Positions 32,776 to 63,930 of a stretch of DNA of 64,000 bases are shown here, in pieces. Below the pieces are notes generated by a model. That model did no database searches. It had not been told where the DNA came from and saw only the letters and a program-made list of their open reading frames with translations. Positions within the stretch are counted from its first letter, which is position 1. Each line of letters starts with the position of its first letter. A program made the translations under genes and the position numbers. Origin of the DNA: Candidatus Saccharimonadota bacterium (GTDB lineage Bacteria; Patescibacteriota; Saccharimonadia; Saccharimonadales; Saccharimonadaceae); assembly GCA_030445245.1 (NCBI GenBank), contig JAUCSD010000001.1, forward strand, positions 626,671 to 690,670, written 5' to 3'.

Positions 32776-32852
32776 TGGTGGAGCATATCGGATTCGAACC
32801 GATGACCTCTTCCATGCCATGGAAGCGCGCTAGCCAACTGTGCCAATGCCCC
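32776..32852 (-). tRNA. tRNA-Ala(GGC)
   Basis: Acceptor GGGGCAT/ATGCTCC, anticodon stem CTTCC/GGAAG with loop ATGGCAT (anticodon GGC), T arm with GGTTCGAATCC, encoded CCA (32776-32778). Confidence 0.92.
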
Positions 32853-32865
32853 AAACTCCTGGTTA

Positions 32866-32997
32866 TTGTAACAAAAGCTCGCCCCTATTCCTAGAGGCGA
32901 GCTTCATTTTTCAGCTGCTACGCGCCCACCCGGGGCACGGTTTTGTTTTCAAACTGTTTGTTTTATACCAAGAGGCTGCCCCTTGGCGTACCAGCTT
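32866..32997 (-). ncRNA. candidate structured small RNA
   Basis: The predicted transcript starts near 32997, 7-8 nt after CATAAT, and ends in an intrinsic terminator (AAGCTCGCC / GGCGAGCTT, then TTTTGTT). A closing helix pairs its 5' end AGCTG-G-TAC with GTA-G-CAGCT. Inside are the hairpins CCAAGGGG-CAG-CCTCTTGG and CGTGCCC-CGGGT-GGGCGCG. GGGGCA in the first hairpin can also pair with TGCCCC in the second. No open frame fits. It carries no motif of 4.5S/SRP, tmRNA or RNase P RNA that I can see. The transcript reads toward tRNA-Ala. Confidence 0.55.
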
Positions 32998-33004
32998 AAA
33001 GACT

Positions 33005-33033
33005 ATTATGCACCGTTATCAAAAAATGTACAA
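33005..33033 (-). promoter_or_regulatory. promoter of the candidate small RNA
   Basis: TTGTAC (33028-33033), a 17-bp spacer and CATAAT (33005-33010) on the minus strand. Confidence 0.55.
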
Positions 33034-33226: not shown

Positions 33227-33571
33227 ATGGCACAACAAAATCTATTCATTGGTAGCCTTGCTTACAGCACTACTGATGACACACTTAAAGCATTTTTCGA
33301 ACAAATCGGTGAAGTTGAAAGCGCACGTGTAATCACTGACCGCGACAGCGGCCGTTCAAAGGGCTTCGGCTTTGTTGAATACAAAAACGAAGCAGACAAC
33401 CAAAAAGCTGTTGATCAGCTTGATGGCAAAGAACTTGATGGTCGCGCAATCAGCGTTGGCCTAGCTCGTCCAAAAGAAGACCGACCTCGTCGTGACTTCG
33501 GCGGCAGCAACGACCGTGGTGGTGACCGTGGTGGTAACGGTGGTGGTTCATTCCGTCAGCGTAGCTGGTAG
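33227..33571 (+). CDS. RNA-binding protein with one RRM and a Gly-rich tail
   Basis: A 114-residue protein with RNP2 LFIGSLAY and RNP1 SKGFGFVEY (the aromatic RNA-contact residues are intact), followed by a tail of about 30 residues rich in Arg, Gly and Asp. The family binds single-stranded RNA and is common in bacteria as cold-shock or RNA-chaperone proteins. The upstream 100 nt form an untranslated leader with a TTACCT/AGGTAA hairpin. A 16-bp terminator follows. Confidence 0.93.
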   Translation: MAQQNLFIGSLAYSTTDDTLKAFFEQIGEVESARVITDRDSGRSKGFGFVEYKNEADNQKAVDQLDGKELDGRAISVGLARPKEDRPRRDFGGSNDRGGDRGGNGGGSFRQRSW

Positions 33572-63821: not shown

Positions 63822-63878
63822 TATACTCTAAAATACTATGATCACTTAGTGATCCTCTACCTGTCTACGTCCGGACGT
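63822..63878 (+). promoter_or_regulatory. promoter and palindromes upstream of the right-edge gene
   Basis: Extended -10 TGC TATACT (hexamer 63822-63827). Just downstream lie the palindrome GATCACTTAGTGATC (63840-63854) and the 12-bp palindrome ACGTCCGGACGT (63867-63878), both in the predicted 5' leader and possible operators or RNA hairpins. Confidence 0.5.
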
Positions 63879-63930
63879 GCCGAACCACTAGCAGACCATG
63901 CACTATCAATTACATTCAACAAGGAAGCTT

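Follow-up and report, generated by a model that had tools for sequence, protein, structure and literature searches.

A structured non-coding RNA of a new family is almost certainly encoded on the minus strand of the window, the whole stretch of 64,000 nucleotides of Candidatus Saccharimonadota DNA that was analyzed. The kind of object is a known one, structured bacterial ncRNA, within which this RNA is a new family. We further think it somewhat more probable than not that the gene is independently transcribed, single-copy and trans-acting, that it is ancestral to one order of Saccharibacteria, and that its structured product is of a housekeeping type and binds a partner. The initial annotation had proposed a new structured small RNA here, and this was borne out by conservation and compensatory changes in relatives and by the lack of an Rfam match. 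A literature search, with preprints and most subscription papers outside its scope, returned no description of the RNA.

An RNA gene with promoter and terminator

The minus strand of 32866-33033 carries TTGTAC, 17 nt, CATAAT, an RNA from ~32996, a closing helix, GC-rich inner pairing and a terminator. The promoter and terminator elements listed here were read from the sequence.

33033-33005, minus strand: promoter of the RNA gene
33028..33033, minus strand: -35 element TTGTAC (-35-like CTTG/TTGACA is equally distant in homologous loci)
33005..33010, minus strand: -10 element CATAAT, with a 17-nt spacer
32913..32996, minus strand: conserved RNA core, 84 nt, positions 1-88 of models R1/R2 (covariance model match 83 bits, E 6e-19)
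32871..32904, minus strand: intrinsic terminator, a 13-bp hairpin (32904-32875) and a T-rich tail

The promoter TTGTAC-17-CATAAT, the intrinsic terminator and the minus-strand orientation of the initial annotation were each found, and AGCUG... opens at 32996, 3' of CATAAT. The proposed length of ~130 nt was refined to a conserved core of 84 nt and a predicted whole transcript, to the terminator, of about 125 nt. The fold of 32866-32996 reached -58.2 kcal/mol against -38.3 ± 3.6 for dinucleotide shuffles (z = -5.6, 0/200 shuffles as low), a difference to which the terminator hairpin contributes part.

Across 72 homologous loci, the best -10 start lay 12-15 nt ahead of the RNA core in 62, the promoter match score was 8.65 compared with 7.59 ± 0.88 in shuffles, and a terminator-like site stood 3' of the RNA in 61 of the 72, compared with 11 of 72 after shuffling. 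The predicted promoter and terminator are thus kept in position, not merely in sequence, and a structured trans-acting ncRNA is expected to have both of its own. A few loci (L017, L027, L030, L065, L067 and L085) have a T-run immediately after P1, the closing helix, and so the functional RNA can end at P1. The homolog alignment revealed no conserved reading frame, because indels are not multiples of 3 and pairs change in a compensatory manner, in keeping with the gene-like layout without a frame that had been described.

Compensatory change in two helices

Two helices, P1 and P2, are defined by covariation.

32986..32995, minus strand: P1 closing helix, 5' strand GCUG-G-UACGC
32914..32923, minus strand: P1 closing helix, 3' strand GCGUA-G-CAGC
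32977..32982, minus strand: P2 helix, 5' strand GGGGCA, the apical loop region of hairpin A in the window's family
32932..32937, minus strand: P2 helix, 3' strand UGCCCC

Covariation was counted in 97 homologs, 94 of them distinct; an earlier 72-sequence version was also run. P1 and P2 together displayed 149 double-change cells against 35.7 ± 6.5 after shuffling, counts that are somewhat inflated because the homologs share ancestry and their alignments (A3/A4) were made to fit the structure. When the partner strand was slid as a control, no more than 17 double-change cells were obtained for P1/P2, and 96.9% of the P1 and P2 cells in the 97 homologs form standard pairs. Compensatory change in secondary structure, as expected of a structured trans-acting ncRNA, is therefore observed.

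The closing helix had been given as AGCTG-G-TAC with GTA-G-CAGCT; it is real and covaries, but it is longer than that, consisting of 9 pairs and one G.G mismatch. The pairing GGGGCA:TGCCCC, suggested as a possible alternative, turned out to be P2, the conserved inner helix, with two-sided changes at all 6 of its 6 pairs. P2 is GGGGYA/UGCCCC in the window's family and elsewhere GCGGCG/CGCCGC, GGCUCU/AGAGCC, AAGGGC/GCCCUU, GGGUUU/AAACCC, UGCGAC/GUCGCA, GGCCUU/AAGGCC and others, giving 28 different sequence pairs, nearly all complementary. Since the P2 3' strand sits 0-2 nt from the invariant GGGUGGGC, little shifting of the alignment is possible at this helix.

Invariant unpaired elements

Two kinds of element that stay nearly constant, GGUGGGC and the A-rich AAAAYAAA loop motifs, lie unpaired outside the two helices.

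32924..32931, minus strand: GGGUGGGC, unpaired in the P1/P2 fold (GGUGGGC in 96/97 sequences, GGGUGGGC in 94/97)
32955..32964, minus strand: A-rich loop motif 1, AAAACAAACA (AAA[C/U]AAA-type motif in 96/97 sequences)
32940..32949, minus strand: A-rich loop motif 2, AAAACAAAAC (the same AAA[C/U]AAA-type pattern; at least 2 motifs in 68/97 sequences)

Invariance centered on the unpaired GGUGGGC and the A-rich motif is what would be expected of a binding site for a putative partner. It could be instead that GGUGGGC is a base-pairing seed, which speaks against the partner-binding interpretation. The RNA would then be a trans-acting antisense sRNA whose exposed GGUGGGC pairs with CCCACC-type sites in mRNAs, tRNA 3' ends or rRNA. 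The conserved unpaired stretch does have the length of a seed, the usual neighbor is tRNA-Ala, and GGUGGG could pair with the tRNA-Ala 3' end UCCACC through 5 Watson-Crick pairs and one G.U. However, a single seed that is invariant across an order would be unusual for mRNA targeting, the tRNA-Ala match is imperfect and not Ala-specific, and the A-rich loop is left unexplained; we regard an antisense role as unlikely.

Competing folds

Two GC-rich hairpins had been listed as primary structure.

32966..32990, minus strand: hairpin A, which competes with the inner half of P1 and carries the P2 5' strand in its loop (arms covary within family f1)
32922..32938, minus strand: hairpin B, GUGCCC/GGGCGC, which competes with P2 (present in the predicted minimum-energy fold)

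Both hairpins held up as features, A through covariation in family f1 and B in the predicted fold, but not as the primary structure, as they compete with P1/P2 and belong mainly to the window's own family. The arms of hairpin A in f1 formed 4.98 of 6 pairs, against 4.39 ± 0.10 when arms were swapped among sequences, and 0/1000 swaps reached 4.98. The outer pairs of hairpin A also covary with P1 base R in f1 (Fisher p = 7e-5, relatedness uncorrected). Mean predicted pairing in f1 was 0.32 for P2, 0.54 for hairpin A and 0.57 for hairpin B; outside f1 the prediction favors P2, and hairpin B falls to 0.21.

Because the P2 5' strand lies in the loop of hairpin A, hairpin A and P2 can coexist as a pseudoknot, whereas the inner half of P1 cannot form together with the extended hairpin A. 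One interpretation of these data is that P2 in the window's family probably forms as such a pseudoknot, between the hairpin A loop and the 3' strand. The modeled pairing also makes fold switching in f1 plausible.

Note that some variants are longer. The core of L208-L210, L212 and L077-L081 measures 110-124 nt and contains one more internal stem, located either in the region of hairpin A or in the terminal loop. In the long variants L077-L079, L081 and L028, hairpin A is longer and GGGGU, read by eye, apparently lies in an internal loop, a position that also appears to fit a pseudoknot.

Distribution across genomes

Of 101 relatives, 38 gave homologs in a DNA search, in nearly every case a single copy, and 23 of these were used to build the covariance model R1. 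The covariance search in relatives that the initial annotation had called for supported the proposal: of the 393 class genomes searched, R1 matched 299, with one copy per listed genome and all in one order, and compensatory changes were present in P1 and P2. In a phylum-wide draw of 287 genomes, the search matched 20, all in the same order; no homologs turned up in the phylum's other classes or in non-Saccharibacteria.

A broader model, R2, was run on 39 genomes, mostly ones with no earlier match, and gave matches up to E 0.1 in 11, the two weakest being poor. It returned zero matches in five genomes from other orders of the class. It also found none in G095 and G059, complete genomes of the order itself, and these two genomes count against the partner-binding interpretation. 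Two extra weak model matches of 19-21 bits on contigs C38 and C34 of genome G084 (L216, L217) are probably due to chance.

An 18-base motif, scanned in 84,980 species, is also present in many GC-rich genomes. Among the matches listed, 80 motif loci were scored; all 16 at or above 40 bits are Saccharibacteria, and the remaining loci of those 80 scored at most 24.5 bits. Every named record in which the motif comes with a real model match is from Candidatus Saccharibacteria/TM7, the oral taxa HOT-348 and HOT-352 among them; the order assignment of the RNA carriers rests on these named records, which make it Saccharimonadales or its equivalent. A DNA similarity search of a phage collection produced no match to the RNA gene, and the best model score on IMG/VR contigs carrying the 18-base motif was a chance-like 24.6 bits.

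Neighboring genes

The RNA gene of the window lies between two genes.

32776..32852, minus strand: tRNA-Ala(GGC), a neighbor outside the RNA (ARAGORN)
33227..33571, plus strand: divergent RRM protein gene (PF00076, E 1e-24)

tRNA-Ala is present in 48 of the 72 homologous loci; in 34 it follows the RNA directly on the same strand. It is a persistent neighbor across families, while its sequence, isoacceptor and distance vary. The arrangement would suit a cis-acting leader or attenuator of the tRNA, in which P1 would be the terminator and hairpins A/B the anti-terminator, and both the T-run right after P1 in six loci and the competing folds in f1 are in line with it. However, in most loci a separate terminator stands between the RNA and the tRNA, and -10-like sequences precede the tRNA. 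Loci L077-L081 have no tRNA near the RNA, and in family f31 the tRNA is at least 1 kb off, on the other strand or absent. The gene ligA shares this synteny in the same block, and so the linkage may be one of inheritance. A cis-acting role is accordingly quite improbable.

Similarly, at least 38 f1 loci have the RRM gene nearby in divergent orientation, and the RNA could be the partner of the encoded protein. Against this, the protein was undetectable in four RNA-carrying genomes (G001, G007, G010 and G011), RRM proteins occur in genomes of other orders that lack the RNA, and outside f1 the RRM gene is no neighbor. The RRM protein was rejected as an obligate partner on the first two grounds, and we consider any partnership with it very unlikely.

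Some f1 loci, and many loci belonging to other families, have ligA upstream, and it is a neighbor in f31; in L077-L081 neither RRM nor tRNA-Ala adjoins the RNA. All this is most simply read as the partial break-up of an ancestral ligA-RNA-tRNA-Ala block. Since neither RRM nor tRNA-Ala is obligatory, the layout argues for a trans-acting RNA. The RNA persists where its neighbors change (RRM in most of f1, ligA in f31), which favors the housekeeping, partner-binding interpretation.

Proposed role

On that interpretation the RNA would work as the RNA of a housekeeping-type RNP. Its architecture, established by comparison, consists of P1, P2, the near-invariant GGUGGGC left unpaired between these helices, and a long terminal loop that is A-rich and carries AAAAYAAA motifs. 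The freely varying helices may form a scaffold on which GGUGGGC and the A-rich loop are displayed for a putative conserved cellular partner, either a protein or a component of the ribosome or RNA polymerase. In the window's family, where the extended hairpins oppose P1/P2, the RNA may switch between two folds. Judging from the pattern of conservation, we place the partner-binding mechanism itself a little short of probable. A bolder version, in which this small, pseudoknotted and possibly bistable RNA forms an order-wide core RNP belonging to a functional class without examples elsewhere and affecting translation or transcription in ultrasmall episymbionts that have lost SRP, is speculative and rather doubtful.

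Bacteria have few near-universal single-copy ncRNAs (tmRNA, RNase P, SRP, 6S), and these usually act in core processes. Saccharibacteria genomes are about 0.5-1.7 Mb and keep little that is unneeded, yet the RNA is single-copy in most of the order. Its presence in cultivable, genetically tractable Saccharibacteria, for which genetic tools exist (PMC10633639), makes it a directly testable target, and with the covariance model the RNA can be annotated straight away in about 300 genomes.

Relation to known RNA families

No family of Rfam 15 matches the RNA at gathering score, and the scan proposed by the initial annotation, when relaxed, gave only chance-level matches (best 20.1 bits against a cut-off of 60). 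Elsewhere in the window, 63835-63894 (plus strand) matches the cis-regulatory MDR-NUDIX RNA (RF02918) above gathering score. The RNA had been said to lack the hallmarks of SRP RNA, tmRNA and RNase P, and the family models indeed went unmatched; for tmRNA and RNase P RNA, neither these models nor, for tmRNA, ARAGORN gave a match. A metabolite-sensing RNA, that is, a riboswitch-like aptamer used in trans, would fit the compact pseudoknot-like fold, the A-rich linker and the invariant unpaired core; yet there is no conserved downstream protein gene, a terminator stands at the 3' end and no Rfam riboswitch matches, which leaves this a highly unlikely explanation.

The single-copy, housekeeping-like distribution could also point to a divergent 6S or SRP RNA. 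SRP RNA was rejected, as there was no Rfam match, the genomes lack SRP RNA and the Ffh M domain, and fold and length differ. RF00169 matched 0/41 genomes and RF01854 0/21, and the Ffh M domain PF02978 was found in 0/21 genomes against 14/14 controls. A search for the SRP54 GTPase in 30 genomes gave nothing above weak P-loop-level matches. A convincing SRP54 GTPase was also not found in the few other phylum members tested, and SRP loss has been reported in Parcubacteria (PMC4508563).

Identity with 6S RNA was likewise rejected: RF00013 has no match to the RNA in the window and is absent from the relaxed-scan list too, fold and length differ, and a separate 6S-like gene exists in G000, the window's genome, and in G028. 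The gene in G028 (L223) scores a sub-threshold 32 bits with RF00013, and its 78% identical homolog in G000 lies at C1:1144272-1144441 (minus strand; L250). A divergent member of either family is therefore extremely improbable. The 6S-like RNAs L250, L223, L061 (G062) and L218-L222 span Saccharibacteria and other phylum members; because they score about 32-42 bits with RF00013, below the Rfam cut-off of 46.4, such RNAs are probably under-annotated in the phylum.

Like 6S RNA (RF00013), the RNA described here is single-copy and predicted to be independently transcribed, with a closing helix that joins the 5' and 3' ends and an internal loop; 6S RNA differs in its length of about 150-190 nt and its long rod with a central bubble. 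It resembles bacterial SRP RNA (RF00169, RF01854), a housekeeping RNA of about 90-100 nt with a closing stem, but it has no SRP helix-8 motif. The T-box antiterminator carries a GGGUGG motif and is associated with tRNA, and in both respects it is similar; however, its fold is different, T-box riboswitches gave no Rfam match, and the conserved downstream aaRS or amino-acid gene is missing here. In their main text, a 26-genome survey (PMC8632094) and a 50-genome survey (PMC11109978) name no Saccharibacteria/Patescibacteria; the orphan structured RNAs of such comparative genomics are like the present RNA in being intergenic, GC-rich and covarying.
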